Source of the DNA: Deltaproteobacteria bacterium
GTDB lineage: Bacteria; Myxococcota_A; UBA796; JAFGLY01
Length of the DNA stretch: 48,761 nucleotides
Reading direction: 5' to 3'
NCBI GenBank assembly: GCA_016927815.1
Contig: JAFGLY010000158.1
Location: forward strand, 1-48,761
Part shown: positions 18,350 through 42,968 of the stretch, piece after piece
Numbering within the stretch: the stretch's first letter is position 1
How the letters are laid out: the number at the start of each line of letters is the position of its first letter
Program-made: the position numbers and the translations under genes
Notes under the pieces: generated by a model
The model's input: only the letters and a program-made list of their open reading frames with translations
Databases searched by the model: none
What the model was told of the DNA's origin: nothing

Positions 18350-18366
18350 GGCGACCTCGGCTGCTA

Positions 18367-18372
18367 AGGATA
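18367..18372 (-). promoter_or_regulatory. Candidate -10 box (TATCCT) for the DUF4157/ATPase unit
   Basis: On the minus strand the sequence TATCCT lies 17 bases upstream of the DUF4157 start. The same hexamer occurs on the plus strand at 19177-19182, ahead of the structural operon. No convincing -35 box is present, so this rests on the hexamer and its position alone. Confidence 0.2.
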
Positions 18373-18427
18373 GCGCAACGGCTCCGGCCGTGGAAGACGG
18401 GACGCGCACCGTTCCGGGATGCGCGCG

Positions 18428-19645: not shown

Positions 19646-19686
19646 CCGTCGTCCTCCCCACCCTGGACGGGCCCCTCAAGGGGCCG

Positions 19687-20490: not shown

Positions 20491-20498
20491 GGTCAGCG

Positions 20499-24582: not shown

Positions 24583-24593
24583 TGGAGGCCCCC

Positions 24594-25058
24594 ATGGCCG
24601 AACAGAAAGCCCCACAGGACGGCTCCCAGAAGAACCTGCTCGATCCGGAAGGCGCCATGCTCTTCGCCCTCGAGATCGAGGGCATCGAGGTCGCGGCGTT
24701 CCTCGAGTGCAGCGGCCTCAAGACATCGACCACGGTCTTCGAGATCGAGGAGGGCGGCCTCAACCAGTACGTCCACAAGCTCCCGGGGCCATCCCGCTGG
24801 GAGAACATCGTGCTGCGCTACGGCGTGACCTCGGACACCACGCTGCTGCAGTGGCGGAACGAGGTCCTGCAGGACCAGTTCTCCGCGAGGCGGAACGGTG
24901 CGATCATCGTGAAGAGCCTGTCCAACGAGTCGGTCCGCCGGTACTCGTTCAAGAACGCCTGGCCCGTGGCCTGGGAGGGCCCGGCCTTCAACGCGAGCGC
25001 CTCGGAGCTCGCGGTGGAGATGATCGAGATCGCCCACCACGGCATCGAGGTCTCGTGA
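24594..25058 (+). CDS. Second tube protein, tube initiator (Afp5-like)
   Basis: A 154-residue Hcp-like tube paralog: MLFALEIEGIEVAAFLECSGLKT, FEIEEGGLNQYVHKLPG, WENIVLRYGVTSDTTLLQW, ending in AVEMIEIAHHGIEVS. In Afp/PVC a second tube protein (Afp5) joins the hub to the main tube, and this gene sits at the equivalent position. ATG 24594 is preferred because GGAGG precedes it by 6 bases; ATG 24582 overlaps the previous stop and would add four residues. Confidence 0.9.
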   Translation: MAEQKAPQDGSQKNLLDPEGAMLFALEIEGIEVAAFLECSGLKTSTTVFEIEEGGLNQYVHKLPGPSRWENIVLRYGVTSDTTLLQWRNEVLQDQFSARRNGAIIVKSLSNESVRRYSFKNAWPVAWEGPAFNASASELAVEMIEIAHHGIEVS

Positions 25059-25066: not shown

Positions 25067-25687
25067 ATGACCCGGCACCCGACGCGCCTCGCGGATCGCC
25101 TGGCGGGACGCCTCGACGGCCGCATCGGGGTGGACCCCCTCCCGTCGGCGCCCGACGGCGACGATCCCAGCACGCCACCGGAGGCACTGGATGCCCTCTT
25201 CCGGGCCGACTCGCCCGAGGCGGTGCTGGCTGCCGCGGCACAGGCGGATGCCCTGCCCCCGTCGATCCGGGAGGTGGTGGCCCGCATCCACGCCCACATC
25301 GACCGCTGGGAACGCACCCCCCGGCCGCGATCCGAGACCTTGCCGGCAGCCCGTCGGGCCGATGCCGTCCCGGGCCCCGAGGCGGGCGCGTCGGTGGACC
25401 CCATCTTGGACCGGCGCATGGACCACCTCGTCCGGCGCCTGGTCCGCCTCGTCCACCTCGCCGAGGTCGACCGGCGCCGGTACGAGGCGCAGCGCCAGGT
25501 CCGCATGGCGGAGGCCACGCCGGAAGCCGTCCAGGAGGCCACTCCCCAGGCCGCCGGCCCGACCGGAACCCCGCCCCCGGACCTGGGTGCCCTGGGTCGC
25601 CAGGTCCTGGAGGCCGTGACCCGCATCCTCGAATCCCGCCAGCAACGGCGGCAGGAGGAGCCCGATGTCCGCGACGTTTGGTGGTAG
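25067..25687 (+). CDS. Hypothetical helical protein in the CIS operon
   Basis: A 206-residue protein, Ala/Arg-rich and largely helical (FRADSPEAVLAAAAQADALP, HLVRRLVRLVHLAEVDRRRYEAQRQVRMAEATPEAV), with a Pro-rich interruption and an unusual C-terminal VWW. No family is recognised. It occupies the place of the small Afp6-type gene between tube initiator and LysM adaptor. ATG 25067 has GAGG upstream; GTG 25055, overlapping the previous stop, is an alternative. The 3' end overlaps the next gene by 23 bases. It could be a chaperone or a baseplate linker, but there is no direct evidence. Confidence 0.7.
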   Translation: MTRHPTRLADRLAGRLDGRIGVDPLPSAPDGDDPSTPPEALDALFRADSPEAVLAAAAQADALPPSIREVVARIHAHIDRWERTPRPRSETLPAARRADAVPGPEAGASVDPILDRRMDHLVRRLVRLVHLAEVDRRRYEAQRQVRMAEATPEAVQEATPQAAGPTGTPPPDLGALGRQVLEAVTRILESRQQRRQEEPDVRDVWW

Positions 25688-26345
25688 CCCCACCAAGGCC
25701 ACGTTCCAGATCCTCGAGGGTCCCCACGCGGGGATCTTCCAGGTCCAGTACAACCCCAAGGAGTTCCGCGTCCAGCGGTCGGTGCAGTGGTCCGAGCACG
25801 AGGAGAACGGGCAGCCGCAGGGCTTCCTCGAGTTCCAGCAGGGCAGCGCCATGTCCGTGACCATGGACCTCATCTTCGACACCACCTGCGAGAGCGGCGC
25901 GGCCCGCGACGTCCGCGCGATGTGGGTCAACGGACTCCTGGTCATGACCAACGCGGAGTGCCAACCCGAGAGCGGCGAGTCGCAGGACCAGGACAAGCAG
26001 CGCCCCCCCAAGATCCTCTTCACCTGGGGGTCCTTCCAGCTGACCTGCGTGGTGGAGTCGGTGGACACCACCTACCTGCTCTTCTCGGGGGACGGCACGC
26101 CGCTCCGGGCACGCTGCTCGGTGCAGCTCAAGGAGTGGACCGAGTCCACCTACGCGGCCGCCACCGGCGGGAAGCGCTGGGAGGGGAACGCCATCCGGCT
26201 GGTGGAGGCGAAGGCCGGCAGTCTTCCCGCCAACGTGGCCTGGGAAACCCGGACCCCCTGGCGGAAGATCGCCGAAGACAACGATCTGGACGACCCCATG
26301 GCCGAGATCCCCGCCGGCATGGAGATCGTCGTCCGGCGACCCTAG
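25665..26345 (+). CDS. CIS tube-associated LysM-like adaptor (Afp7-like)
   Basis: A 226-residue protein of the contractile injection system tube family. It opens KATFQILEGPHAGIFQVQYNPKEFRVQRSVQW, where the QYNPKEF motif is diagnostic, and has FTWGSFQLTCVVESVDTTYLLF and ARCSVQLKEW. The C-terminus WRKIAEDNDLDDPMAEIPAG is a degenerate LysM, with the usual W..IA..N.IdDP..l.pG pattern. Afp7-type proteins join the tube initiator to the spike hub. A strong GGAGG site precedes the ATG. It overlaps the 3' end of the previous gene. Confidence 0.9.
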   Translation: MSATFGGSPTKATFQILEGPHAGIFQVQYNPKEFRVQRSVQWSEHEENGQPQGFLEFQQGSAMSVTMDLIFDTTCESGAARDVRAMWVNGLLVMTNAECQPESGESQDQDKQRPPKILFTWGSFQLTCVVESVDTTYLLFSGDGTPLRARCSVQLKEWTESTYAAATGGKRWEGNAIRLVEAKAGSLPANVAWETRTPWRKIAEDNDLDDPMAEIPAGMEIVVRRP

Positions 26346-26390: not shown

Positions 26391-27428
26391 ATGCCGGAGC
26401 AGGACAGCCAGGTACGAAGCGCAGCGTCCTACGAGATCGTCATCGCGGGCACCACCTACACGCAGCGGGACCGCCTGGGCGTCGAGTCGCTCACGATCGA
26501 GGATCACGTGGACATGGTGTCCATGCTGACGATGGAGGTCGGAGGGGCCGAGGGGCAGCCGGCCTGGACCTTCGAGATCGGCCAGGAGGTCACGGCCAAG
26601 GTCGGAGACATGACCGCCGTGATCTTCAAGGGCGAGATCACGGCGCTGGAGCCCTCCTGGAGCGCCAAGAACGGTGCCCGGATCGTGGTCCGCGCCCTGG
26701 ATCCGCTCCACAAGCTGGGGCGGGGCCGCCAGAGCCGCGCCTTCCCCGATCAGACGGACTCCGACGTCGTCAGCACCGTGGCGGGCGACTGCGGCCTCAA
26801 CGTCGAGGTGGACACCACCTCGCCGACCCACCCCTACATCCTCCAGCGAAACGAGAGCAACATCTCGTTCGTGAAGCGCCTGGCCGCCCGGAACAACTTC
26901 CTGCTGAGGCTGGACCGCGAGACCCTCCTCTTCAAGAAGAACCAGTACACCGGAGACGAGGTCACGCTCACCAACGGCGCCAACGTCCAGTCCCTGCGCA
27001 TCTCGGCCAACACCGCCGACCTCGCCGACAAGGTCGTGGTTCGGGGATGGGACCCCCTCACCAAGCAGGCGGTCGTGGGCGAGGCCTCGTCCGTGACGAG
27101 CGTGGGCGGAGGGACGACCGGTATCGACCTCGCCAAGACGAAGTTCGGCGAGCACACGTCCTACGTCACGGACGTCCCGGTCACGGATCAGAACCTGGCC
27201 ACCGCCATCGCGACCGCCGAACTGGAACGGATCGCGCGCCAGTTCGTAAGGGGGAATGCGACCATCTACGGCAACGATCGGGTCCGGGCCGGGACCAACG
27301 TCGTCCTGGCGGAGTTCAACAGCCCCTGGGACGGCAAGTACTTCGTGATGGCGTCTCGACACGTGATCGGGTCCGGCGACGCCTACCTCACCGAGTTCAC
27401 CTTCTGCAGCAACTCCTTCGGCTCATGA
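26391..27428 (+). CDS. Hub protein (gpD/gp27-like) without visible spike domain
   Basis: A 345-residue late-control gene D/gp27-like hub: YEIVIAGTTYTQRDRLGVESL, DMVSMLTMEVGG, GEITALEPSW, DVVSTVAGDCGLNVEVDTT, NISFVKRLAARNNFLLRLD, and at the end VVLAEFNSPWDGKYFVMASRHVIG. In Afp8 and VgrG the hub is fused to an OB fold and a beta-helical spike. Here the gene stops after the gp27-like part, shorter than Afp8 (about 500-600 residues). The spike would have to come from another gene. ATG 26391 has GAGG upstream. Confidence 0.88.
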   Translation: MPEQDSQVRSAASYEIVIAGTTYTQRDRLGVESLTIEDHVDMVSMLTMEVGGAEGQPAWTFEIGQEVTAKVGDMTAVIFKGEITALEPSWSAKNGARIVVRALDPLHKLGRGRQSRAFPDQTDSDVVSTVAGDCGLNVEVDTTSPTHPYILQRNESNISFVKRLAARNNFLLRLDRETLLFKKNQYTGDEVTLTNGANVQSLRISANTADLADKVVVRGWDPLTKQAVVGEASSVTSVGGGTTGIDLAKTKFGEHTSYVTDVPVTDQNLATAIATAELERIARQFVRGNATIYGNDRVRAGTNVVLAEFNSPWDGKYFVMASRHVIGSGDAYLTEFTFCSNSFGS

Positions 27429-27459: not shown

Positions 27460-27858
27460 ATGACGGTGCGCAAGGAATTCCTCGGACGCGGATGGACGTT
27501 CCCCTTCGCCTTCGACGCGGCCAAGGGCGGGGTTGCCATCTCCGAGTACGAGGAGAACATCCGCCAGTCCATCACGGTCATCCTGGGAACCCGTCCCGGG
27601 GAGCGCCTCACCCTCCCGGAGTTCGGCTGCCGCATCCATGAGCTGTTGTTCGCGCCCAACACGCGGGCCACCGCGGCCATGGTGGCCTACCACGTGGAGC
27701 AGGCCCTCAAGCGCTGGGAACCGCGCATCGAGGTCACCGGCATCCAGGCCCGTCCCGGGGAGGCCGGCATGCTCAAGGTCGAGGTGGACTACCGGATCAT
27801 CTCCACCAACAGCCCCCAGAACCTGGTCTACGTCCTCTCCAACGGAAGTCGCCGCTGA
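27460..27858 (+). CDS. gp25-like baseplate wedge protein (Afp9-like)
   Basis: A 132-residue gp25/GPW family protein: GRGWTFPFAFDAAKGGVAIS, EENIRQSITVILGTRPGERLTLPEFGC and a long IEVTGIQARPGEAGMLKVEVDYRI. The EFGC motif and the GTRPGERL turn are strongly conserved, and EPR residues in this family trigger sheath assembly. It is standard length. The stop overlaps the next start by one base (TGATG). Confidence 0.95.
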   Translation: MTVRKEFLGRGWTFPFAFDAAKGGVAISEYEENIRQSITVILGTRPGERLTLPEFGCRIHELLFAPNTRATAAMVAYHVEQALKRWEPRIEVTGIQARPGEAGMLKVEVDYRIISTNSPQNLVYVLSNGSRR

Positions 27859-30800
27859 TGCCCATCAAGCCTCCCAACCTGGATGACCGCAGGTACGTGG
27901 ACCTCGTCGCCGAGGCCCGCGCCCTCATCCCCCAGTACTGCCCTGAGTGGACGAACCTCAACGACGCCGACCCCGGCATGACCCTCGTCCAGTTGTTCGC
28001 CTGGATGACGGAGATGATCGTCTACCGACTGAACCGGGTGCCGGACAAGACCTACATCCACTTCCTCAACTTCATCGGCGAGGAACGGCGACCTGCGCGG
28101 CCTGCGGTGGCGCCGGTGACGTTCGCCTCCCGATCGGACGACCCGGTGGACCTGCCCGCCTTCACCCGCGTGGCCACGCGGCAGCGGGAGGATCAGCCCG
28201 CCCTGCCCTTCGTCACCGTCTCGCCGTTGACCGTGCACAGCGCCACGGTCAAGCGGGTCATGGCCGTTCGGGGCGGGAACCGACCGGCGGTCCGGGAGAT
28301 CCCCTTCACCCTCGTCGACGGCCACCCCTCTGCGCTCGCCTTCGGAGCGGGCCGCGGCGTCCAGGTCTTCGATCTCGATCCCGTGGAGGCAGGCCCCGAG
28401 TCCTACACCCCCCACCAGTACCTGTACGTCAACCACGACGACGTACGCCTGATGAACTTCGACCCCGAGAAGGAGGATCGTCCGGTGGGACGGCTCCACG
28501 TGAGGCGGACCGGGGCCGAGGGGCTCTCGGTGGTGAGCCTGTTCGACTGGGAGTACCCCACCGAGGAGGGGTGGGCCCCCATCGCGCTCGACGCGGAACC
28601 CGAGGAGGTCCTCGGGATGCCCGTGGTGACCCTCCAGGCGGCCTTGCCGGGCATCCGGCCCCTGGAGGACTTCCACCTTCCCGAGGCGGCCATCGCGCTC
28701 CCCGAGGCCGTCAAGGAGGAGCGCTGGTGGATCCGCGGCCGGCTGGCGTACGAGCGCTGGCTGGCGCGTCGCATGCAGGAGGATCTCGAGGTCTCCTGGC
28801 GCGACGACCGGGGCGGGGCTGCGAGGCCCATCAACAACTGGGAGGTGAACGCATCGGGCCGATCCATCCTGTTCGCCCTACAGGACGTCCCTCCCATCCG
28901 AGGCGGCTGGACCGTACGGCTCGCCCTGGTGGATCGGGGCCTCCCGGCGGGCCGCAACGGCTACCTCCCGACCTACCGCTGGTCGTACCGGCGCGGGGAC
29001 ACCTGGGAGTCCATCCCCTCGGAGCGCGTGCGGATGGAGAACTCCGTGGTGGTGCTCACCGGCCCCATGACCGACATGGCCACCGACGGCTACAACCTCA
29101 GGGCCGAGCGCATCGAGACGGTGTACCTGCGCGGCATCTGCCCGGACCTCGACCTGGATCTCACCTGGATCCGCCCGGTGGAGATCTCCATGTTCGCGGG
29201 CGACGATCCGCGCCGCCTGGAGGCCATGCTCCTCGACGAGGGGCCGTGGTCCCCCTTCCAGATGGGCCCCACCCTCCCCCCCACCATCGGGCGCAAGTGG
29301 TACATCGGAAGCGACCTGTTCGAGAACCGACGGCAGGCGCCGGTCCTCGTCGAGCTGGAGGTGGCCTTCGAGGTGAACGGCGAGCCGGTCGCGGAGCCGG
29401 TCGGAGACTACGTCCTGCAGTTGACCTACCGGGCCCAGGACAACTGGCGCGTGGTGTGGAGCGAGGACAAGCGCTTCGCCGGCTTCACGTTCGCCTCGTT
29501 CGACGAGGAGGGGGCCAAGAAGCCCGGCCGCAGGCGCATCCGCATCGTGCTCGATCCCAAGACCGCGTTGAAGGGGCTCGCCCGACACGAGGTCGGAGGG
29601 CGGGAGAGCACCTGGATCCGCTTCGAGATGACCAAGAGCAACCTCACCGTCACGGACAAGGAGAAGAACCGCCACCCGGTCGTGCCGCGCATCTACGGGG
29701 TCCGTCTCGGTCCCGACAAGACGCTCGGAGACGGGACCTTCGAGCAGCCGATGCCCGGACCCAAGATGAGCGAGCTCGACTACCGGCCCCAGAACCAGCG
29801 GCTCACCCGGATCCTCACCCGCGCCACCGGCCGTCTGGCCGAGCACTACCCGTTCTATCCCTTCATCGAGCTGGACCAGGAGAACCTCTCCTTCTACCTG
29901 GAGCTCGACCGCCCGATCCCGCGTGCCGATCGCCACTCCATCCACCTCCGCTGCCGCGGAGAGTCGTTCCTTCCCGCCGGCACCCAGGTGGACTGGGAGG
30001 TGTTGGAGCAGAGGGACTTCGGCCGCACGGCCTGGCAGCGGATCCGATCGTCCTCCACGCCGCAGGCCGGGGGCGATCAACCGGTGTACGACTTCACGAG
30101 GACCGGCGAGTTCGCCTTCGCCTACCCCGACCCGCCGCCCACCCCGGAAGACGGCTTCTGGATGCGGGCTCGGTTCGTGCTGCCCGAGGGCATGGCAGCC
30201 GATCGGTTCCCGGCACTCCCGCCCCTCACGCACCTGCTCCTGAACACGGTCGACGCGGTCAACCTGTGGACGCTCACCACGGAGCGGTTCTCCGGGTACG
30301 GGGTCCCACACCAGGTCCTCCAGCTCCGGCGCCACCCCATCTACGTCCACCACGGCGAGTCGGAGCGCATTCCGTTCCCCCGGCCCGACGCGTTCACGGA
30401 CATTCGTGTCTGGGTGGAGGGCGAGGACGGCAACCGGGAGGAGTGGCTCCCGGCCCGCGACGGCAACCTGCTCACGGCCACCAAGGACGACCGTCTCTTC
30501 CTGGTCGACCCCGTGGAGGGCACGCTCACCTTCGGCAACGGCATCCGGGGCCGCATGTTGCCGGTCGGCAACAGCAACGTGGTGGTAGACGTCTACCACG
30601 TGATCCCCGGTGCGTCGGGCAACGTTGCCGCAGGAGCGGTCCAGGTGGTGGAGGATCGGGCGGACCTGGTCAAGGCCACCAACCTCCTGCCGTCCACCGG
30701 CGGACGGGACGCGGAGACGATCGAGGAGATCGTCCGGCGGGCCCCGAGCCTGCTCACCAGCCGGGATCGTGCGGTCACCCGATCCGACTTCGAGGTCATC

Positions 30801-31373
30801 GCCCGGGAGGCATCCGGCGAGGTGTCCCGGGCGTCCTGCACCGGCGAGATGCAGCCCGACGGCTCCGTGGAGGTGGTGATCCTCCCCACTCGGCGCGAGG
30901 GAGAGGAGACCCCGGATCCCTTCCTCTCCACCGGCCTTCGGGATCACGTCCAGGCCTACCTGAAGCGCCGTTGCCTCGTCAACGTGGATCCCGTGGTCCG
31001 CCTGGCGCGCTTCCGCCCCATCGACGTGTCGGTCACGCTCCGGCTACGGCCCAACGCCAACATCCTGGTCGTCCGCGAGCAGGCCATCGCCTGGATTCGC
31101 CGGTTCCTCGACCCCTACGACGGCGGGTTCGACAGGGACGGCTGGCCTTTCGGCGGCACCCTCTACGCCCAGGACCTGGCCCGGCTGGTCGCGGACCTGG
31201 CCGACGTTCGGCACGTGGCGGCCGTCCGGCTCTACGACATGGCCGACCCCGCCCGACAGAGGGAGGGTCCGGGCTGGGAGCAGGGAGAAGGCGTCGAGAG
31301 CATCGAACAGACGGGCCACGATCTCTTCGTCGTCCGGCGCATCCGCGTCCTGGCCGAGGAGATCTCGGCATGA
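27858..31373 (+). CDS. Large baseplate J/gp6-like protein (Afp11-like)
   Basis: A 1171-residue putative baseplate assembly protein. The N-terminus (LIPQYCPEWTNLNDADPGMTLVQLFAWMTEMIVYRLNRVP) carries the DPGMTLVQLFAW signature of the eCIS baseplate protein family. Near the end, the J-like region reads LTFGNGIRGRMLPVGNSNVVVDVYHVIPGASGNV and SLLTSRDRAVTRSDFEVIAREASG, typical gp6/BapJ segments. The middle is a long beta-rich insertion common in eCIS forms. It forms the wedge ring around the hub. It overlaps both neighbours (TGATG upstream, ATGA downstream). Confidence 0.93.
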   Translation: MPIKPPNLDDRRYVDLVAEARALIPQYCPEWTNLNDADPGMTLVQLFAWMTEMIVYRLNRVPDKTYIHFLNFIGEERRPARPAVAPVTFASRSDDPVDLPAFTRVATRQREDQPALPFVTVSPLTVHSATVKRVMAVRGGNRPAVREIPFTLVDGHPSALAFGAGRGVQVFDLDPVEAGPESYTPHQYLYVNHDDVRLMNFDPEKEDRPVGRLHVRRTGAEGLSVVSLFDWEYPTEEGWAPIALDAEPEEVLGMPVVTLQAALPGIRPLEDFHLPEAAIALPEAVKEERWWIRGRLAYERWLARRMQEDLEVSWRDDRGGAARPINNWEVNASGRSILFALQDVPPIRGGWTVRLALVDRGLPAGRNGYLPTYRWSYRRGDTWESIPSERVRMENSVVVLTGPMTDMATDGYNLRAERIETVYLRGICPDLDLDLTWIRPVEISMFAGDDPRRLEAMLLDEGPWSPFQMGPTLPPTIGRKWYIGSDLFENRRQAPVLVELEVAFEVNGEPVAEPVGDYVLQLTYRAQDNWRVVWSEDKRFAGFTFASFDEEGAKKPGRRRIRIVLDPKTALKGLARHEVGGRESTWIRFEMTKSNLTVTDKEKNRHPVVPRIYGVRLGPDKTLGDGTFEQPMPGPKMSELDYRPQNQRLTRILTRATGRLAEHYPFYPFIELDQENLSFYLELDRPIPRADRHSIHLRCRGESFLPAGTQVDWEVLEQRDFGRTAWQRIRSSSTPQAGGDQPVYDFTRTGEFAFAYPDPPPTPEDGFWMRARFVLPEGMAADRFPALPPLTHLLLNTVDAVNLWTLTTERFSGYGVPHQVLQLRRHPIYVHHGESERIPFPRPDAFTDIRVWVEGEDGNREEWLPARDGNLLTATKDDRLFLVDPVEGTLTFGNGIRGRMLPVGNSNVVVDVYHVIPGASGNVAAGAVQVVEDRADLVKATNLLPSTGGRDAETIEEIVRRAPSLLTSRDRAVTRSDFEVIAREASGEVSRASCTGEMQPDGSVEVVILPTRREGEETPDPFLSTGLRDHVQAYLKRRCLVNVDPVVRLARFRPIDVSVTLRLRPNANILVVREQAIAWIRRFLDPYDGGFDRDGWPFGGTLYAQDLARLVADLADVRHVAAVRLYDMADPARQREGPGWEQGEGVESIEQTGHDLFVVRRIRVLAEEISA

Positions 31374-32458
31374 CCCGCACGGAGATCGCCCTGAGGCGTA
31401 CGGGCCGCATCGCGGCCCACGGGAGCGACCTCCAGGTCATCGAGGAGGTGGTGCGGGTGGGGTTTCCCATCCAGGCTGCGCGCAGCTACCTGAGGCGACA
31501 TCTGGGCAACGAGATCCGCGTGCGCCTCGTGGAGGCGGTTCGAGGCGAACGCCTGGGCCACGTGCGTGCCGCCGAGGTGCTTCCCGCGGGAGGTGGGGAG
31601 CCCATGGTCGTCCGTGCGATCCGCACGCTGCCGGACGGATCCCCCGCCTCCTTCTTCGCGCCCGAGGACCAGGTCACGCTCACCACGACCGTGGAGGTGC
31701 CGGGTGGGGCGCGGTTCACCCCCTCCCCGCGGGACACGGTGCTCCTCCACGTGCCGGTCCGTGGGTACACCCGGTACCTGCCCTCGATCTACCAGGGCCA
31801 GGCGCCGGTGGTCCACAAGCGGGAGGTGGCTCCGCTGGACGCCGCGGCCGCCCGGCGCCCGGGGGCCCGGTCGGACGCCGCGGCCGAGCCGGACGACAAC
31901 GAAGCGTTTCGACGGTTTCTCTTCGTCTTTCAGCACCTCATGACCACCGTGCTGGATCGGGTGGACCAGATCCCCTCGCTCACGGATCCCATCGTCTCGG
32001 ACGCGCGGTTCCTGCCGTGGATCGCCTCCTGGGTCCATTTCGAGCTGGACGGATCCCTCCCGGTCCACCAGCAGCGGGAGCTGGTGCGTCGCGCCATCCG
32101 CCTCTACCGCAACCGAGGCACCCGGGAGGGCATGGAGGACATGATCCGCGTCCTCACCTCCGCGCCCGTGCGGGTGCTCGAGCGCGAGAAGCCTCCCCCC
32201 GCTGCGCTGGGTGCGATGGTCCTCTCCGGCGGCCGAGACCTGGCCGGCCGGTACCTCAAGGACGAGCCGCTGGCGCACTTCCTGATTCCCCAAGACCGCC
32301 AGTGCATCCGCTACTTCGCCCTGGCTCTGGAGTCCCGGGCCCGATTCGAGCGCCGCTTCGGCGAACGGGCCGTGGAGGTGCTCCGCCGCATCACCCGCAT
32401 CGTCACCGCGGAGAGGCCCGCGCACGTGCTCTTCACGATCCGCTTCGACGAGTCCTGA
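31370..32458 (+). CDS. Afp12/gpI-like baseplate protein
   Basis: A 362-residue baseplate protein. A gpI-like core is seen at RFLFVFQHLMTTVLDRVDQIPSLTDPIVSDARFLPWIASWVHFELD and RRAIRLYRNRGTREGMEDMIRVLT; the RNRGTREGM motif is diagnostic of the P2 gpI/Afp12 tail family. Baseplate wedge proteins of this type hold the gp6-like ring and, in phage, the tail fibres. An N-terminal extension (RYLPSIYQGQ) precedes the core. The start overlaps the previous stop (ATGA). Confidence 0.9.
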   Translation: MTRTEIALRRTGRIAAHGSDLQVIEEVVRVGFPIQAARSYLRRHLGNEIRVRLVEAVRGERLGHVRAAEVLPAGGGEPMVVRAIRTLPDGSPASFFAPEDQVTLTTTVEVPGGARFTPSPRDTVLLHVPVRGYTRYLPSIYQGQAPVVHKREVAPLDAAAARRPGARSDAAAEPDDNEAFRRFLFVFQHLMTTVLDRVDQIPSLTDPIVSDARFLPWIASWVHFELDGSLPVHQQRELVRRAIRLYRNRGTREGMEDMIRVLTSAPVRVLEREKPPPAALGAMVLSGGRDLAGRYLKDEPLAHFLIPQDRQCIRYFALALESRARFERRFGERAVEVLRRITRIVTAERPAHVLFTIRFDES

Positions 32459-32499: not shown

Positions 32500-33435
32500 A
32501 TGCAGAATCCCTTCCAGTTGACCCGGCTCCGTCCGTTCGAAGGCCTGTGCCTCACCGCCCAGGACCTCCAGGACGAGCAGGAATACCACCGTCGCGCGCT
32601 GCGCCGCCACCACTACTTCCTGCACGGATTCGGCATCGTGCAGGGACTGCAGGTGGAGCTGCAGCAGCGAAAGGAGAAGTACGTCGCCATCATCCAGGCG
32701 GGCTTCGGGATCACCTCCCTGGGCCAGGGCGTGCTGCTCAGCGAAGCGGCCGCAGTGCCGCTCGAGGTCCCCAAGCAGGATGGAGAGTACGTGCTCTGGC
32801 TCTTCCACGTCGAGTCCACGAGCGACGCCGACGTGCGACCCGTCTTCGACAGCACCGAGGAGCAGCCCTCGCGCGTGCTGGAGGGCAGCGCCCCCCGGCT
32901 GCACGTGTTGGGGGAGGAGCAGCCCGATGCCGTGGCTCTCTGCCGCATCAACGTGCGCCTCGGTCGGATGGTCCAGGTGCCGCTCCCGGTCCCGAGGGCC
33001 GGCCGCCACGCCCGTGCCGCCGAGTCCTACCTGAAGCCCAGCGTCATCGAGTACATCCGGCTCAACAAGAAGATCCTGCAGAGCCTCTTCCGCACGGCCC
33101 TCCTGAAGGAACTGGGCCTCCCCTCGCTCGGGTTCTACTCCGCGCTGATCGGATCGGAACTCCTGCTCATCGAGGAGGGAACGTCGGATCGGGTCCTGTA
33201 CCGGACGGCCGGATCCCTCATCGCCTACGGCCACGACTTCTTCGACCCCCTTCCCAAGACGACCGATCGCATCGACAAGTACAAGGAGTTCGTCCGCCGG
33301 GTCAACGCCGAGGTCCCCGCCCCGGATCAGGGCGACGACGTGTGGCTCCGGTGGTTCGAGAAGTTCGAACGCCTGCTCCAGCCGCTCGCCAAGATCGTGG
33401 AGGAGCTGGAGCGGACCGTGGAGGCCCAACGGTAG
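32500..33435 (+). CDS. eCIS-associated protein, possible baseplate accessory
   Basis: A 311-residue protein opening LTRLRPFEGLCLTAQDLQDEQEYHRRALRRHHYFLHGFGIVQGLQVE, a conserved N-terminal pattern (F.G..L.a.D...eQ.YhR...R.hnr.lHG.Gvv.GL) found in many eCIS and tail loci. The middle is beta-rich (GEYVLWLFHVESTS, VALCRINVRLGRMVQVPLP) and the C-terminal third is helical. No enzymatic motif is visible. From its position it could be a baseplate-attached or receptor-facing protein. ATG 32500 has GGAG about 10 bases upstream, a slightly long spacing. Confidence 0.75.
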   Translation: MQNPFQLTRLRPFEGLCLTAQDLQDEQEYHRRALRRHHYFLHGFGIVQGLQVELQQRKEKYVAIIQAGFGITSLGQGVLLSEAAAVPLEVPKQDGEYVLWLFHVESTSDADVRPVFDSTEEQPSRVLEGSAPRLHVLGEEQPDAVALCRINVRLGRMVQVPLPVPRAGRHARAAESYLKPSVIEYIRLNKKILQSLFRTALLKELGLPSLGFYSALIGSELLLIEEGTSDRVLYRTAGSLIAYGHDFFDPLPKTTDRIDKYKEFVRRVNAEVPAPDQGDDVWLRWFEKFERLLQPLAKIVEELERTVEAQR

Positions 33436-33441
33436 CCGCTC

Positions 33442-34365
33442 ATGCCGGACATGGAACCCCGCCAGACCGTCCAGGTACGGGTGCAGGTCGTGGACCTGCG
33501 CTCCTTCACGCTGGATCTCGTCGTGCCGACCTACCTGCCCGCCCGCGATCTCACGCACCGCATCGCTCGGGACGCGGGCCTCGAGTCCCACTGGCCCGAT
33601 GGACGGCGCCATCTCTACTGGCTCCGCGCCCGGGGCCGTCTCCTGGGCGACGACGAAAAGCTCGGTGATCTGGGGATCGTGGACGGGGAGTTGGTCTACT
33701 TCCTGCCCGAGCCCCCGCTGGGCAGCGGGGTCGTGGAGCAGACCCCCGACTACCCGCAGACCCACAGCTACGCCGGGCGCGGCATCTGGGCTCTCCTGGC
33801 GAGCATCGTGGGTGTGTGCGCCTGGAGCCTGGCCTGGGGTGTGGCCCTCTCCGTGGATCGCAGCCTCCTCGTGGTGACGCTGCCGGGCCTGGGCCTCGGG
33901 TTCCTGGTCACCTCGCTCGCTCGGCACGCCTGGGGCGGCCATGGGGCCCGCGCTCGGGTGGTCGCCACGGGCCTGGGCCTCTTCGTGGCGCTGGCCTGCC
34001 TGGCCGTCGCGGTGCCGGTCTTTCTCGAAGGCGAGCCCATCGGCGCCCTCTTCGCCCAGCTCATCCCCGGCCTCATCGCCGGGTTCATCGGGGTCCTTCT
34101 GGGATGGCTGGCCTGGTGGGGCGCCGTGGAGCCGCTCTCCGAGACGCCCCGCACCTCGCCGGCGGCCGCTGCCGAGGCTTCCGGGCAGGCCGCAGCCCTG
34201 GTGGCCTGCGCCATCTGTGGCATGCCGGTGGCGCCCGAGGTCCGCCAGGAGTGCCCCCACGGGTGCGGTCGCGTCTTCCACGTCGGCTGCTGGCAGGCGC
34301 GCGCGTCGGTCTATCGTGGCGATCCCGGCATCTGCGCCATCTGCGGCCAGCCCATCGCCCGATGA
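33442..34365 (+). CDS. Membrane protein with ubiquitin-like N-domain and RING-like C-domain
   Basis: A 307-residue protein with three parts. Residues about 9-90 form a beta-grasp/ubiquitin-like domain of YukD/EccD type (VQVRVQVVDLRSFTLDLVVP, then GRLLGDDEKLGDLGIVDGELVYFLP). Four TM helices follow at about 114-136, 141-160, 172-194 and 202-227. Residues 256-301 form a zinc-finger-like C4HC3 module: C-x2-C-x11-C-x3-C-x4-H-x2-C-x14-C-x2-C, with FHVGCW as in RING/PHD folds. It begins 6 bases after the previous stop, inside the CIS operon. The T7SS EccD also has a ubiquitin-like domain before TM helices, but no RING is known there. E3-like activity is not shown by the sequence. A structural zinc-binding anchor is an equal possibility. 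Confidence 0.8.
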   Translation: MPDMEPRQTVQVRVQVVDLRSFTLDLVVPTYLPARDLTHRIARDAGLESHWPDGRRHLYWLRARGRLLGDDEKLGDLGIVDGELVYFLPEPPLGSGVVEQTPDYPQTHSYAGRGIWALLASIVGVCAWSLAWGVALSVDRSLLVVTLPGLGLGFLVTSLARHAWGGHGARARVVATGLGLFVALACLAVAVPVFLEGEPIGALFAQLIPGLIAGFIGVLLGWLAWWGAVEPLSETPRTSPAAAAEASGQAAALVACAICGMPVAPEVRQECPHGCGRVFHVGCWQARASVYRGDPGICAICGQPIAR

Positions 34366-36713: not shown

Positions 36714-38834
36714 ATGAGTACTATCGCGAGCTTGACCGCCACGGGACGCCGGATGCACGGACCGGCCTCCGACCTCGTTGAACTGGTGAACGACGACGGG
36801 TACCGGCACACGGCGATCGTGTTCCACCCCGAGTTCCGGGATCACCCCTCCATCAACGCCGCGCTGGCGGTGGTGCTGGGGTTCCTCGAATCCCCGATGG
36901 TCACGGGTCTCGTGGAGCTCGTCGCCCACGACCGGGACGAGGGCGCGTTCGTCTACCCCACCGGCCAGTGCTGGTCCGTGGCCGAGGTGAACCGCGTCTA
37001 CGCCGACCTGGGCGAGGTACCCGGCGTGCGGGCCGGTCTCGAACTCCTCTACGCCGCGGGCGAGATCCTCAACGAGGCGGCCGACACCGGAGAGGCGCAC
37101 GGGGTCTACTCCCACGGCGGACTCACCCCGTGGCGGGTGCTGCTCAAGCCCGACGGACAGGCCCTCGTCATCGGCCACGCGCTCCCCCAGGTGGAGATCT
37201 CGAGGTTCCGGGAGGACCCCAAGGCCATTCCCCGGGAGGACTCCTTCCGGTACTGCCCCCCCGAGCGACTCGACGGGAGGTCCGAGAACGTCTCCTCCGA
37301 CCACCTCTCCCTGGCGCTCATCGCCTTTGAGCTGATGACTGGGAAGCCCGTCTACGACGGCCTGGTCAACGACATCCGCGCCCAGGCCAGCCGGGGTGAG
37401 GGATCGCGACGCCTGTTCCGCTTCCGCGACACGCTCCCGCACGGCGTCCAGGAGCTGCTCAAGGTCTGCTTCCGGCCCGAGATGGACGGCCGCCACCCCA
37501 GTGGGGCCCGCTTCCTGGACGAGGTGCGCGCCTGCCTGTCGAGTCGAGAGGTGGAGGGCCCCTCGCTCCTGGACGTGATGACCCGTGTCTCGCGCGTGCA
37601 GCAGCGGATCGGACAGCCGCTCGACAGCGGCGCCACCATGATGTTCCAGAAGGAACAACTGGCCGAGGTGCTCGGAGGCGAGGCCCCGTCCCGCCCGTCC
37701 ACCCGCGAGGCATGGACCCCCCCCACCGGTACCCGCCGACCGCCTCCGCGCTCCGAGGCTGCAGCCGATCCGGCCCCGGAAGCGCCGCCCCCTGCCGCGA
37801 GGCCTCCGAGCGCACCCGCCGCCTCCCCGGCCGAGCCTCCGGGGTCCTCCGAGGCCGCACGTTGGCGGCGCCCGACGCGCAGCCCGCCTCCCGCCGAGGC
37901 GACGTCCTCCCCGGATCAGGCGCATCCGCCCCAGGAACCCCCTCCCCTGCGGCAGCCGGCAGCGCCGGCGCGACCGGGCATCGGCGTGGCCCGGCGCCCC
38001 CCGCGTCTCGCGGCGAGGGGCCCGGAAGAAGAACCGGCCGCCCCGGCGGCGCCCGCCGAGCGGCCCGCAGCCTCCGCCCCCCCCCCACCGCCGCCCGAGG
38101 AGCCGCCCACCGCCGTGTCGAGCCCCCCCGCCGCGGCACCTTCGGCTGCTTTGCCCGAGCCGCCACCGCTCCCACCGGTGGCGCCCCAGCGGACGCCGCT
38201 GGGCAGCCTCGCGCCTCCCGAAGACAGCGCTCCGGAGGAGGACGACGCCTCCGAGGGCACGGGACTCCTCGCGCGACCCGTCAAGTCCGGCGCGCTTCGG
38301 ACCCAGGTCTGGCGGGTACCCGACCGCCTGTCCGACGAGGCCCTCCGCGGGGACACCGCCGTCTTCCGCCTCCGGCTCGCACCGGGCGCGAGCGAGTCCC
38401 GGTTCCGCCTCCCCGTCCGAGCCCCCTCCTCCGAGGCCCTGGCCAGCCTCGTGGGACGCCACCTGCCGCTCCGGGCCGATCCTTCGGGCCGGCTCGCCGG
38501 ATGGTGGCGGTTCTCCCTCGACGGACAGGCGGTTCCCGGTACGCGGGCCATGGCCGACCTTCCCCAGGACGGCATCCTGGACATCGCGTTCGTGGAGAAC
38601 CAGGTCCGGTTGGTGGACCTCGAGGTCGTCGCTCCGTCCGGCGCGGTCCGTCTCCGCATCGCCCTGGGCACGGCGGTTCCGGCCGTCACGATCGTGGACG
38701 CCGTGGCCCAGGTGCTCGACCTGCCCGAGGGCAACTGGCGCCTCGAGGTCGGTTCCCACGCCTGTGAGCCGCACGAGATCCTCGCGGACCATCCCGAGTC
38801 GCAGGGCACGGTCCTGTCGGTCGTCGCCAGATGA
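36714..38834 (+). CDS. Pseudokinase with tandem C-terminal ubiquitin-like domains
   Basis: A 706-residue protein. Residues about 1-275 show a protein-kinase fold pattern: ELLYAAGEILNEA, then YSHGGLTPWRVLLKPDG at the catalytic loop, CPPERLDG and SSDHLSLALIAFELMTGKPVY. Key residues are lost: HRD is HGG, DFG is GHA, and the VAIK lysine is absent (TAIVF). A Pro/Ala-rich linker spans about 325-505. Two beta-grasp-like segments end the protein, at about 546-632 (FRLRLAPGASESRFRLPV, WRFSLDGQAV, ADLPQDGILDIAFV) and about 633-706 (AVRLRIALGTAVPAVTIVDAVAQVLDLPE). It may act as a scaffold reading or presenting partners. Its stop overlaps the next ATG by four bases. Confidence 0.78.
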   Translation: MSTIASLTATGRRMHGPASDLVELVNDDGYRHTAIVFHPEFRDHPSINAALAVVLGFLESPMVTGLVELVAHDRDEGAFVYPTGQCWSVAEVNRVYADLGEVPGVRAGLELLYAAGEILNEAADTGEAHGVYSHGGLTPWRVLLKPDGQALVIGHALPQVEISRFREDPKAIPREDSFRYCPPERLDGRSENVSSDHLSLALIAFELMTGKPVYDGLVNDIRAQASRGEGSRRLFRFRDTLPHGVQELLKVCFRPEMDGRHPSGARFLDEVRACLSSREVEGPSLLDVMTRVSRVQQRIGQPLDSGATMMFQKEQLAEVLGGEAPSRPSTREAWTPPTGTRRPPPRSEAAADPAPEAPPPAARPPSAPAASPAEPPGSSEAARWRRPTRSPPPAEATSSPDQAHPPQEPPPLRQPAAPARPGIGVARRPPRLAARGPEEEPAAPAAPAERPAASAPPPPPPEEPPTAVSSPPAAAPSAALPEPPPLPPVAPQRTPLGSLAPPEDSAPEEDDASEGTGLLARPVKSGALRTQVWRVPDRLSDEALRGDTAVFRLRLAPGASESRFRLPVRAPSSEALASLVGRHLPLRADPSGRLAGWWRFSLDGQAVPGTRAMADLPQDGILDIAFVENQVRLVDLEVVAPSGAVRLRIALGTAVPAVTIVDAVAQVLDLPEGNWRLEVGSHACEPHEILADHPESQGTVLSVVAR

Positions 38835-40456
38835 GCCAGGAGCGCTGGGACGTCGTCGTCCGCTACCTGACCGGTCCGCTGTCCATCCAGGGCGAGCAGG
38901 TCTACCGGGGGCCCGTGATCCGGATGGGGGCCAACCCGGGCCCGGGGGGCGTGACCCTCGCGGGCTATCGCGGCCTCGACGCGCGCCATGCGGTGATCAC
39001 CTCCTACGAGGGCGGCCAGGTGGCCATCGCGCCGGTGGGCAACGCCCAGGTGCGGGTGGCACCCCACGAGAACGTGGACTGGAACGAGGTCCAGGTGATC
39101 CCGCACCCGGTCTACCTGCAGGACGGCTGCGCGGTGCACCTGGGCCCGCCGGGCCGTGGGCTCACCTTCCTGTTCGTGGAGTGCCGTCGGCTCGGGGTGT
39201 GGGAGGAGCACCGCATCCTCTCGGATGCCGCCCAGGTGTCGCCGGAGGTCGAGCCGACCCGGATCCAGGAACTGTCCACCGAGAAGGGGATGCCCACCTG
39301 GTTCATCGGCGGAGTGGTCATGGCAGGGATCGTGACCGCCGTGGCGGTCCTGTTCTCCCTCTTCCGCTTCTACGAGAACCCCATCGCGGGCCTGGGCCCC
39401 ACCGGGGAGGGTGTCGAGCGGTACGAGTACGTCCCGGTGGACATGGAGCTCAACAGCGAGTTGAGGGAGGGCCTCGACCAGCCCTTCGCCGACTTCCTGA
39501 TGATCCCGAACGCGAGGGCCGCGGATTGGAAGGCCCTGGCCGAGGACCCCGCGCAGTGGGACCAGCGCCTGCTGGACCAGGTCACGCGCTCCGTCCAGCT
39601 GCACGCCCAGGGATGGGCCTTCTTCAAGCGGTTGGAAGCCGCCACCGAGGACTGGGCCTTCGTCGTCGGCGAGCTACGGAAGGCCGGCCTCCCCGAGGTG
39701 TTCGCGGCCATCCCCTACCAGGAGAGCAGGTACACCGCCAACGCCGTCTCCCCGGTGTGCGCCCGCGGCTTCTGGCAGTTCATGCCCGAGGTGGCGAACC
39801 GGGCCGGGGTTCGAGTCCGGGAGTGCTCCATGAAGGGGGGAGACGTGCTCTGGAGCCCCACCGCGATGGTGGTCCCCGTCAACGCCCGGAAGCGCGCCGA
39901 GTACGTCTCCTACAACGCGGAAAAGAACACCACCACCTGCCTCATCCGCCAGTGCGCGGTAGACGAGCGCAGCGACCTGGCCGCCTCCACGCGAGGGGCC
40001 GTCACCCTGCTCCAGGACGTCATGAAGGACCCGGATCTGCGTCGGTCCGGGGCTCTGCTCCAGATCGCCATCACCTCCCACAACACCGGCTACGACGACG
40101 CCCGCTTCGACGAGGGCGGCAGAGGCCGACGCCGGATCTTCAACGTGAAGCCCGCCTACCAGAGGTACCTCGAGGCCCGCCGGCTCGACCGCGGACCGTT
40201 CTTCGTGGGCGACAACATCACCTGCGCCTCGGCCACGTTCGTGAACGATGCGTGCGGCGGGTTCCTCATGGACCAGTCCCAGCACTACGCCTACAACATC
40301 ATCGCCCAGCACTTCCTCGCGGTCTGCTACTACGGCGCCGCCCACGGCGACCTCCCGGCGTTCAAGCCGTGGCGCGGCTATGTACGCGGCGACGGATACT
40401 GTACCCGCTTCCAGGTTCCCTCCCTGGAGAAGGTCCGGGAGAAGATGTCCCAATGA
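38831..40456 (+). CDS. FHA-like/TM/lytic transglycosylase fusion
   Basis: A 541-residue protein. Residues about 5-120 are a divergent FHA-like beta domain (VIRMGANPGPGGVTLAGYRGLDARHAVI, strongly FHA in the RxG...ARHA pattern). A TM helix lies at about 156-180. The extracytoplasmic part has a GH23 lytic transglycosylase domain: LPEVFAAIPYQESRY with the catalytic glutamate at 298, GFWQFMP, then DERSDLAASTRGAVTLLQDV and a C-terminal HNTGY motif. These MltD/SLT-type enzymes cleave peptidoglycan glycan strands. The combination places a phosphothreonine reader in the cytoplasm and a wall-cutting enzyme in the periplasm. It overlaps both neighbours by ATGA. Confidence 0.9.
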   Translation: MSQERWDVVVRYLTGPLSIQGEQVYRGPVIRMGANPGPGGVTLAGYRGLDARHAVITSYEGGQVAIAPVGNAQVRVAPHENVDWNEVQVIPHPVYLQDGCAVHLGPPGRGLTFLFVECRRLGVWEEHRILSDAAQVSPEVEPTRIQELSTEKGMPTWFIGGVVMAGIVTAVAVLFSLFRFYENPIAGLGPTGEGVERYEYVPVDMELNSELREGLDQPFADFLMIPNARAADWKALAEDPAQWDQRLLDQVTRSVQLHAQGWAFFKRLEAATEDWAFVVGELRKAGLPEVFAAIPYQESRYTANAVSPVCARGFWQFMPEVANRAGVRVRECSMKGGDVLWSPTAMVVPVNARKRAEYVSYNAEKNTTTCLIRQCAVDERSDLAASTRGAVTLLQDVMKDPDLRRSGALLQIAITSHNTGYDDARFDEGGRGRRRIFNVKPAYQRYLEARRLDRGPFFVGDNITCASATFVNDACGGFLMDQSQHYAYNIIAQHFLAVCYYGAAHGDLPAFKPWRGYVRGDGYCTRFQVPSLEKVREKMSQ

Positions 40457-41172
40457 AACTCCGCCCCTGGATCCTCGGCGCGGTCCTCGTCGGAGCCCTG
40501 GGGGTGAACGGGTACCTGGTGATCCATGAGCGGATTGCCGTCGGCGAGTCCGAAGCCCGCCACCGTACCCGCAAGGAGGATCCCCTCATCGACCTCCCGT
40601 ACACCTCCGCCAGTCGGTCGTCCGACTTCGGGCGCTTCGGGCTCGTCGGGCCCCTGCTCACGCAGGCCGTGGAGCGCGTCCAGGAGCAGGACGAGGCCAA
40701 CCGGGCCCTGCTCAAGGATCGCATCGAGAACGTCGGCGATCCCGACCTGTTCCTGAAGACCTTCTGCCGCACCGATCGCGGGGGCCTGCCTCCCCACTAC
40801 TCGGGCCTGGCCTGGTTGGTCCAGGACGAAGGCGGGCGGCGCAGCGCGATCTCCGTCCCCCGGATCACCTCGCTGGAGCCCGGGGAGTGGGCGAGCCGCT
40901 CCCCCATCGCCGAGGTGTACGCCACCGTGGAGTTGAACGACGACCGGAAACCCGACGCCACGGTGATGGGACTCGCGGCCATCCTGCTCGGCAGGGAGGA
41001 CGAGGCCATCCATCGCCGCTCCCCGTGGGGCCAGGGGCTCGGAGGCCGCTGGTCCTGGGAGCGGCTGCAGAAGGAGGACGTCGGGATCGCCGACCAGGTC
41101 ATGCAGTACCTCGTCCTTCTGCACCTCACGATGGAGATCGTCACGGCCGAGGGCGGCTTCTGCAGCGACTGA
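40453..41172 (+). CDS. Membrane-anchored hypothetical protein
   Basis: A 239-residue protein with an N-terminal signal anchor (WILGAVLVGALGVNGYLVIH) and a soluble part (FGLVGPLLTQAVERVQEQDEANRAL, VMGLAAILLGREDEAIH, QYLVLLHLTMEIVTAEGG) with two cysteines. No family is recognised. The start overlaps the transglycosylase stop (ATGA), so the two proteins probably work together, perhaps as partners in the periplasm. There are 107 bases between its stop and the next gene. Confidence 0.7.
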   Translation: MKLRPWILGAVLVGALGVNGYLVIHERIAVGESEARHRTRKEDPLIDLPYTSASRSSDFGRFGLVGPLLTQAVERVQEQDEANRALLKDRIENVGDPDLFLKTFCRTDRGGLPPHYSGLAWLVQDEGGRRSAISVPRITSLEPGEWASRSPIAEVYATVELNDDRKPDATVMGLAAILLGREDEAIHRRSPWGQGLGGRWSWERLQKEDVGIADQVMQYLVLLHLTMEIVTAEGGFCSD

Positions 41173-41208
41173 CGGCCGGATGCCCGGGCGTGACCAGGAA
41201 CCCGTGGT

Positions 41209-41214
41209 TATGCT
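41209..41214 (+). promoter_or_regulatory. Candidate -10 box upstream of the second kinase
   Basis: TATGCT lies 65 bases before the kinase start in the 107-base gap after the previous operon. It matches the sigma-70 -10 consensus at four of six positions. No good -35 box is visible. Confidence 0.25.
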
Positions 41215-41279
41215 CCCCCGACCCTTGAGCCGCCGCTGTCTCCCGCCCTGGAACCGAAGGGTGGACGCACGAGGACCGG

Positions 41280-42968
41280 ATGTCTGTGGAGCCGCGTCGT
41301 AGATTCCGTTTCCTGCAGGAGATCTCCGAGGGGTCCTTCGGCAAGGTGTACCTCGCCGAGATGATCACGGGCGACAACTTCTCCACCATCGTGGCCATCA
41401 AGCTCCTGCACGGCAAGTGGCTCGGGCACGAGGAGATCGTGATGCGGTCGCGGGACGAGGCTCGCCTGCTCGGCCTGCTGCGCCACCAGAACATCATCCG
41501 GGTGGAGGACCTCACCTCCATCAACGGCCAGTGTGCCGTCGTCATGGAGTACCTGGACGGGGTCGACCTGAAGAGCCTCATCGCGTTCCTCGTCGAGCGG
41601 CGCACCCTGTTCCCGCGCCACGCCGCGGCCGAGATCACCGGGGGCATCGCCGCCGCCCTGGAGGCTGCCTACAACCACCGTCCTCTCCAGGGGGGAGACC
41701 CCCTGCGGGTCATCCACCGTGACATCAAGCCTTCCAACGTGATGATCACGGCCGCTGGAGAGGTGAAGGTCCTCGACTTCGGGACCGCCCGTGCCAACTT
41801 CCAGGACCGGGAGGCCCAGACCCAGGCGCTCGCGTTCGGGTCCCAGGCCTACATGGCCCCCGAGCGCAAGGAGGGCGAGCCCGACTCGCCCGCCGGAGAC
41901 GTCTTCAGCCTCGGCGTCACGCTGTACGAACTTCTGGCCCTCGACCGGTTCGGCACGATCTACATCCGGGAGGACCGCTACCGCACGGTGCTCCAGCAGA
42001 ACATCGAGGCGCTGGACCTCACCGCCTGGCCGGATCCGTACCCGGCCGAGGTCCGCACGTTCCTGTACCGGATGATGGACTACCGCCCGGAGAACCGCCC
42101 TCCTGCGGCCGAGGTCATCGAGGCCATGGAGGATCTGGCCGACAAGGCGAACGACCTCACGTTGAGGCGTTTCTGCCGCCGCTACGTGGCCGAGGCGGTA
42201 TCCCGGCGCGAGCCCATGCAGACCCCGGGGGATCCGCTGACCGGATCCACCCTGGTGGAGGATGCCAGCAGCGCCTTCGGGACCCGGATGAGAGACGACG
42301 AGGTGGTGAGCGGCCCCTGGCCCGTCCGCCAGGAGAGACCGCCGGAGGCGGTCGCGCCCGAACCTCCCGAGGAGGTCCCACCCTCTCCCCTCCCCCCGGT
42401 CGGGGAGCCCCCGGTGCAGCAGGCGCCCGTGCCCGAGGTCGCGCCTCCCCCGGAGGGGGGGTCCGTCGAACCACCCGTGCCCGAGGCCGCGCCTCCGGCC
42501 GCTCCGGCCCGGCGTTCGCGCGGGCTCCTCTACGGGATCGTCGGACTCGTCGTCCTCGGGGTCCTGGGCGCTGCCGCCGCGCTCGTCGTGCCTGGGCTGC
42601 TCGGGGACGAAGCGGCCGAAGCACCCCCCCCCGAGGTCACAGCCGTCGAGACCGAAACCCCCATGGCCTCGCCACCGCCCCCGCCTCCCGCCACCGGAGC
42701 CGTCGGCTCCCTCCGACTCAGCATCGAACCCGTGGGCGGCGCCGTGGTCACCACCACCTCGTCCCTCTCCGGCTACCGCGACGTCTGGGACGGACAGGGA
42801 GAGCGCCTCCTCGCCGATCTCCCGGTGGGGACATACAGGACCAAGCTCAAGCTCTCCTCGGGCCGGAGCATCCGTTCCACCGTCGAGGTACGGGCAGACC
42901 AGACATGCACCTTCACCTTCGACCTCTCCTCGGGATCCGACCAATGGCACGACGACGGGTGCGACTAG
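41280..42968 (+). CDS. Transmembrane Ser/Thr protein kinase (Hanks type)
   Basis: A 562-residue active-looking kinase. Motifs: G-loop SEGSFGKVY (about 16-24), VAIK lysine 41, HRDIKPSN (146-153), DFG (166-168), MAPERKEG and DVFSLGVTLYELLAL. After a Pro/Glu-rich stretch there is a TM helix at about 415-440 and an extracytoplasmic beta domain (GSLRLSIEPVGGAVVT, LADLPVGTYRTKLKL), PEGA-like. The layout matches the kinase at 9077. The start has GAGG upstream. The end overlaps the next gene by 25 bases. Phosphorylation of the FHA-like and pseudokinase proteins nearby is inferred. Confidence 0.92.
   Translation: MSVEPRRRFRFLQEISEGSFGKVYLAEMITGDNFSTIVAIKLLHGKWLGHEEIVMRSRDEARLLGLLRHQNIIRVEDLTSINGQCAVVMEYLDGVDLKSLIAFLVERRTLFPRHAAAEITGGIAAALEAAYNHRPLQGGDPLRVIHRDIKPSNVMITAAGEVKVLDFGTARANFQDREAQTQALAFGSQAYMAPERKEGEPDSPAGDVFSLGVTLYELLALDRFGTIYIREDRYRTVLQQNIEALDLTAWPDPYPAEVRTFLYRMMDYRPENRPPAAEVIEAMEDLADKANDLTLRRFCRRYVAEAVSRREPMQTPGDPLTGSTLVEDASSAFGTRMRDDEVVSGPWPVRQERPPEAVAPEPPEEVPPSPLPPVGEPPVQQAPVPEVAPPPEGGSVEPPVPEAAPPAAPARRSRGLLYGIVGLVVLGVLGAAAALVVPGLLGDEAAEAPPPEVTAVETETPMASPPPPPPATGAVGSLRLSIEPVGGAVVTTTSSLSGYRDVWDGQGERLLADLPVGTYRTKLKLSSGRSIRSTVEVRADQTCTFTFDLSSGSDQWHDDGCD

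Follow-up and report, generated by a model that had tools for sequence, protein, structure and literature searches.

A ubiquitin-like, four-helix membrane protein with a RING/PHD-like finger, encoded behind the baseplate genes of a Myxococcota_A CIS, is a candidate membrane dock

How a contractile injection system (CIS), a machine resembling a phage tail, meets the membrane of the cell that builds it is the question raised by a gene directly behind the CIS baseplate genes of a Deltaproteobacteria bacterium (Myxococcota_A; GCA_016927815.1, genome label G000). The window, meaning the whole stretch of DNA that was analysed, is contig JAFGLY010000158.1, positions 1-48,761. The gene encodes a protein with an N-terminal ubiquitin-like (Ubl) domain, four transmembrane (TM) helices and a C-terminal zinc finger, referred to here as the Ubl-4TM-finger protein. 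The features of the window are as follows, each with the evidence for its assignment.

15649-17739, - strand: AAA ATPase with a winged-helix domain (family match)
17780-18409, - strand: eCIS_core protein (PF13699)
19597-20490, + strand: Pvc16_N protein, cap/terminator-like (family match)
20487-22307, + strand: sheath 1 (family match)
22380-22823, + strand: tail tube 1, gp19 (family match)
22823-23200, + strand: small protein with a C-terminal zinc-ribbon-like end (sub-threshold match)
23395-24582, + strand: sheath 2 (family match)
24582-25058, + strand: tail tube 2, gp19 (family match)
25067-25687, + strand: unnamed CIS-operon protein (conserved in relatives; no Pfam match)
25665-26345, + strand: CIS tube protein (PF19266)
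26391-27428, + strand: hub/spike, Phage_GPD (family match)
27460-27858, + strand: gp25-like baseplate wedge (family match)
27858-31373, + strand: baseplate J, Cis11-like (family match)
31370-32458, + strand: Cis12/Tail_P2_I-like baseplate wedge (family match)
32500-33435, + strand: Cis13-related, TssK-like baseplate protein with no TM helix, directly upstream of the gene under study (NF053767, TIGR03353, Foldseek)
33442-34365, + strand: Ubl-4TM-finger protein, 307 aa, ATG start
33466-33708, + strand: YukD/EccD-like ubiquitin fold, residues 9-89 (Pfam; AlphaFold2 with Foldseek; profile match to sister Ubls)
33784-34125, + strand: four TM helices, residues 115-228 (AlphaFold2 model; loop charges)
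34207-34344, + strand: C4HC3 RING/PHD-like finger, residues 256-301 (ligand pattern; conservation)

Family matches identify the surrounding operon as a complete CIS with two sheath and two tube proteins, a CIS tube protein, hub, gp25 and baseplate J, together with Tail_P2_I, eCIS_core, Pvc16_N and AAA ATPase proteins. This agrees with the CIS setting assigned in the initial annotation, which had also placed the gene six bases after the baseplate genes; the spacer is 33436-33441, between the stop of the upstream baseplate gene and the Ubl-4TM-finger ORF. Membership of a T7SS was considered and rejected because the neighbours are CIS genes, with no FtsK/EccC ATPase or WXG100 family among those scanned. 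The 22823-23200 product, encoded between tube 1 and sheath 2, ends in a zinc-ribbon-like CPECG motif. Further downstream, positions 36714-42968 encode a kinase-like protein, an SLT transglycosylase and a Ser/Thr kinase (41280-42968), which are conserved downstream in several relatives.

The product of the gene directly upstream appears to be related to the Cis13 family without being a full member. It matches NF053767 (CIS13_fam) at 9.5e-13 through its N-terminal 120 residues only, the N-terminal third of the protein, and scores 48 bits against a curated cut-off of 370. The TssK model TIGR03353 matches weakly (0.021). Foldseek gives a weak match (8e-3) to the TssK structure 5y0e, which is only a hint since the underlying model has a low confidence (pLDDT 52). 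Both families are associated with membrane attachment: in the thylakoid CIS, Cis13 provides the membrane anchor (PMC8894136), and TssK joins the baseplate to the membrane complex in the T6SS (PMC5813253).

An AlphaFold2 model of the Ubl-4TM-finger protein, built from the window protein and 23 relatives, has a mean pLDDT of 83.8; a beta-grasp is followed by four long helices and, at the end, a small part resembling a zinc finger. The beta-grasp spans residues 9-89. Pfam YukD (PF08817) matches residues 12-85 with an E-value of 2.7e-8 and 34.9 bits, above its cut-off of 27. When the model was compared with the PDB by Foldseek, the best matches were EccD chains of ESX-5 and ESX-3, followed by the folds of ubiquitin, SUMO and ISG15 on the N-terminal domain. 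The domain is therefore the YukD/EccD-like beta-grasp that had been proposed from the DNA, and not an unrelated fold. It is the one YukD-type domain of genome G000. The model likewise contains the four TM helices expected by the initial annotation, at residues 115-138, 142-167, 170-196 and 200-228. Net charges of +2.6 for loop 2 and -1.4 for loop 3, together with the helix count, fit a predicted N-in/C-in topology in which the Ubl domain and the finger would both be cytoplasmic.

Relatives of the protein share 48-71% identity and occur in Myxococcota and related 'Deltaproteobacteria' MAGs. Strong conservation is seen in a GWLAWWGA-E-L motif at the end of TM4 and in an LPEPP-GS linker between the Ubl domain and TM1. 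Domain searches matched no toxin domain in the protein, plasmid records gave no match to it, and IMG/VR contained no relative. Two MAG records labelled 'Klebsiella pneumoniae' (L008, CAMAWH010000050.1; L015, CAMBIK010000010.1) encode this protein of a Myxococcota-type CIS, and the label looks wrong.

The C-terminal finger has eight ligands, C256, C259, C271, C275, H280, C283, C298 and C301, in cross-brace order and with the spacing C-x2-C-x11-C-x3-C-x4-H-x2-C-x14-C-x2-C. Conservation was counted per residue in an alignment of 43 distinct rows. Seven ligands are invariant and C298 is present in 42 of the 43 rows, while the non-ligand cysteines 126 and 186 are not conserved. The eight-ligand C4HC3 finger of the initial annotation is thus upheld, as is the conservation of its cysteines in orthologs. 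Its description as RING-like stands in part. The cross-brace ligands and a RING-like helix after ligand 5 in the model (residues 281-290) fit that description, whereas the sequence cannot separate RING from PHD. The x4 between ligands 4 and 5 is PHD-like, and the Trp usually found in PHD fingers two residues before ligand 7 is missing. In a profile search against the PDB, the PHD fingers of Pygopus and KMT2D ranked best (about 1e-3) and RINGs matched more weakly, all of the matches being weak. No curated finger family in Pfam exceeded its cut-off (zf-RING_2 0.47, PHD 0.63, zf-HC5HC2H 0.032), and Prok-RING_1 did not match at all. Because the spacing fits both types, and appears closer to PHD, and no curated family passes its cut-off, we name this ambiguous finger RING/PHD-like.

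The gene is closely linked to the CIS across its order. The Ubl-4TM-finger protein is encoded in 58 of the order's 63 genomes, and the rest of the 379 phylum genomes yielded no full-length relative. Its presence tracks that of a CIS with a close baseplate J: among the order genomes that lack it, four (G018, G019, G024 and G061) have a divergent baseplate J or no detected close one, and in the other, G043, baseplate J is fragmented. The protein occurs without a CIS only in G029, a genome that is 79% complete. In 48 loci with both genes, some of which are one place counted twice, the Cis13-like gene precedes the other on the same strand, in most cases by no more than 130 bases; three of these loci have 0.7-2.3 kb inserted between the two. 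No Cis13-like gene was found within the stretch covered in a further 24 loci, some stretches being short or the gene having moved. In part of family f4, the Ubl-4TM-finger gene is away from the main CIS cluster, yet kept, and in the f4 loci L009, L015 and L065 it sits together with the gp25 gene, apart from that cluster.

In two sister families of the class, f8 and f9, the corresponding parts stand in separate genes. The Cis13-like gene of their CIS loci (L062, L074, L075 and L076) is immediately followed by genes for an E1, a 4TM-finger protein (four TM helices, finger at the C-terminus), a free Ubl and an E2, in that order. Genomes G065 and G066 have the identical gene order on short contigs. 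Pfam matches in the sister CIS loci are to ThiF for the E1 (4.5e-39), UQ_con for the E2 (2.3e-7) and YukD for the Ubl (1.4e-6), and the E2s retain the HPN motif and the Cys. The genes overlap or nearly touch, and the E1 of L062 starts inside the stop codon of the preceding Cis13-like gene. L062 also has a JAMM protease gene close by, and in three f9 genomes (G067, G068 and G070) a JAB domain, part of a frame some 1000 aa long, is encoded on the contig that carries the E1-E2 module, roughly 8-11 kb from the E2 (G068:C440:3166-3474, G070:C76:47773-48072 and G067:C22:23031-23294). The f8 and f9 CIS loci accordingly hold the predicted parts list of a ubiquitin-like conjugation system, namely E1, E2, Ubl, finger and JAB. 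In f9 the finger keeps ligands 1, 3, 4, 7 and 8, of which 3, 4, 7 and 8 form site 2, and has lost ligands 2, 5 and 6, so that the finger may have a structural role in f9 too.

Profile comparison by hhalign aligned residues 120-304 of the window family with the sister 4TM-finger proteins (2.9e-9) and residues 25-95 with the sister free Ubls (1.4e-6), and the controls for each comparison, one reversed and ten shuffled, were all 0.03 or worse. Both matches indicate that the window protein is homologous to the Ubl and 4TM-finger proteins joined together. The link between the enzyme module and the CIS is not strict, and the module can exist alone: G067, a genome 90% complete, has an E1-4TM-finger-Ubl-E2 cluster at L100:12272-15482 (G067:C22), and no sheath or baseplate J was detected in it. 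None of the other E1/E2 matches in the phylum, at G030:C156 and in G301, G173, G146, G340 and G371, proved to be a CIS locus when CIS genes were looked for there, and a search of phage records for the E1 gave distant ThiF-like matches only.

The window's order is different with respect to the enzymes. No Pfam E2 family was found in 62 of its 63 genomes, while the positive control in G030 was recovered. The sole exception, G030, carries the CIS fusion protein and also a separate, non-CIS operon (L095:6952-12752, G030:C156) that encodes a YukD-Ubl, an E1, a JAMM protein, a Prok-RING_1-TM protein and an E2. The tail of its free Ubl, PEITAGSGPK, resembles the LPEPPxGSG linker of the window protein. 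In G000, neither Pfam nor a CIS-E2 profile search finds an E2, an E1 of this clade is likewise absent at 1e-20, and the one JAB match, at another place in the genome, is sub-threshold. With no E2 and a single YukD-type domain in G000, this organism is unlikely to carry out conjugation through a complete pathway of its own. In a midpoint-rooted sheath tree with long branches, the fusion rows are grouped (97/99) and the families with separate E1-E2 genes fall outside; in the baseplate J tree the branches are too long to order events. The sheath tree weakly suggests a fusion of Ubl and 4TM-finger accompanied by loss of E1 and E2.

Taken with its position and its kin, the protein has in our judgement an even chance of being a cytoplasmic-membrane dock for the CIS baseplate, derived from a CIS-linked conjugation module whose enzymes were lost. 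The four TM helices would anchor it in the membrane and leave the Ubl domain and the finger exposed to the cytoplasm, the site of CIS assembly. The Cis13/TssK-like neighbour, which has no TM helix of its own, would bind the Ubl domain, the finger or both, thereby tying the baseplate to the membrane before the CIS fires. The ancestor would have been a ubiquitin-like module in a CIS operon, made up of E1, 4TM-finger, Ubl and E2 with a linked JAB; its Ubl and 4TM-finger would then have fused into a single chain while E1 and E2 disappeared. Since the sister families encode the same parts beside E1 and E2, the likely dock appears to have been built from a ubiquitin-like conjugation system. With the enzymes lost and the Ubl fused, the protein most likely works by binding, as the EccD Ubl does, and not by conjugation. 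A membrane receptor for the baseplate, as first suggested by the initial annotation, is a plausible role and our leading hypothesis, in which we infer the topology, the baseplate binding, the direction of the fusion and the loss of conjugation; the domains, the conserved ligands, the co-occurrence with the CIS, the homology to the two separate proteins and the missing E2 are observed. More generally, some CIS may contain a built-in module of E1, E2, YukD-Ubl, 4TM-finger and JAB whose task at the membrane is to modify or tether the baseplate, and which is reduced in the window's order to a one-chain dock; we put this somewhat short of an even chance.

Against a dock are the partial CIS13_fam match, far below its cut-off, the poor model of the neighbour, the 24 loci in which no Cis13-like gene was found, and the enzyme module of G067 with no detected sheath or baseplate J; a regulatory or assembly factor would also be conserved to the same degree. 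The protein could be a sensor in the membrane whose Ubl domain and finger gate the assembly, loading or firing of the CIS, without serving as a structural anchor. Such a factor would show the same conservation and synteny as a dock, the motifs near the membrane at the end of TM4 and before TM1 would suit a signalling switch, and protein kinases are encoded downstream in the window. CisA, moreover, is needed for firing and contraction and is not described as a component of the particle (PMC12237407). Nothing specific indicates sensing, however, and the known kin of the Cis13/TssK-like neighbour, itself without a TM helix, are anchors or connectors, so that we consider a sensor unlikely. Active conjugation is harder still to accept. 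Here the protein would be a membrane E3, or a precursor that releases its Ubl after the conserved Gly-Ser tail onto CIS or cell proteins, a view favoured by the E1, the HPN/Cys E2, the Ubl, the finger and the linked JAB of the sister loci, by the likeness of the LPEPP-x-GSG linker to the free-Ubl tail of G030, and by the intact finger ligands in the window's order. It is nevertheless improbable given the missing E2 across nearly the whole order, the lack in G000 of a strong E1 of this kind or of more than a sub-threshold JAB, the internal position of the Ubl, and the loss of three finger ligands in f9 despite the presence of E1 and E2.

Toxins are often encoded at the 3' end of eCIS operons (PMC8213781), and a gene at the operon end might specify an effector or immunity protein, acting as cargo or in self-protection. 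Toxins vary, whereas this protein has no toxin domain and is found in one copy per CIS throughout the order at 48-71% identity, kept even after relocation, which makes this reading very improbable. Least probable of all is an unrelated membrane protein that is conserved in the lineage and neighbours the CIS by chance. Its absence from the main cluster in part of f4 would fit, but it co-occurs with the CIS at a conserved position, has relocated together with gp25, is found without a CIS only in the incomplete genome G029, and has a homologous 4TM-finger protein at the matching place in the sister CIS loci.

Several known systems resemble the proposed baseplate dock in part. EccD of the ESX T7SS and YukD/EsaB likewise place an N-terminal YukD-type ubiquitin fold and TM helices in a secretion machine. 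EccD, however, has about 11-12 TM helices compared with four in the window protein, which has an additional zinc finger; the machine here is contractile, and its operon was found to contain no other T7SS gene. In the thylakoid CIS of Anabaena, Cis13 has likewise been proposed to attach the baseplate to the membrane, and a Cis13-related protein adjoins the window gene. Anabaena Cis13 has its own TM helix, whereas its window counterpart has none and is followed by a separate 4-TM protein. CisA of Streptomyces and Hbor_38620 of the haloarchaeal T6SS-like CIS are also membrane proteins conserved with a CIS, and the CisA gene lies just downstream of the baseplate genes, as the window gene does. CisA is single-pass with a periplasmic domain and Hbor_38620 has six TM helices and a cytoplasmic domain, in contrast to four TM helices here, and the papers on these two proteins do not mention ubiquitin or zinc domains. 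For a dock there are thus precedents in Cis13, CisA and the archaeal 6-TM protein.

Prokaryotic operons of YukD-Ubl, E1, E2, JAB and Prok-RING were reportedly described by Burroughs, Iyer and Aravind in 2011. These operons (PADLOC 'E1-E2') likewise combine a YukD-type Ubl, a ThiF E1, a UQ_con E2, a JAMM protein and a TM-finger protein. Examples are G030:C156 and G301:C105, neither in a CIS; in the window's order, by comparison, Ubl and finger form one chain and E1 and E2 are missing. Bil, which acts on a phage tail, and Bub-type anti-phage systems also share a bacterial set of Ubl, E1, E2 and JAB, but they serve phage defence outside CIS operons, and Bil has a double Ubl that JAB trims to a C-terminal Gly. 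The Bil (BilABCD) operon is described in PMC11354881. Our full-text search of open-access journal papers for CIS together with ubiquitin-like proteins found no such protein or operon and hence no precedent for the ubiquitin parts of the dock or for CIS-linked E1-E2 operons.

The Ubl-4TM-finger protein offers a candidate, across a whole order, for the link between the baseplate and the cell's own membrane in CIS that have no membrane complex of the T6SS kind. In the sister loci, a complete set of ubiquitin-like enzymes is encoded within a CIS operon. Together the loci suggest a natural progression in which parts of an active conjugation pathway give rise to a structural component, as the EccD Ubl may be in the T7SS.
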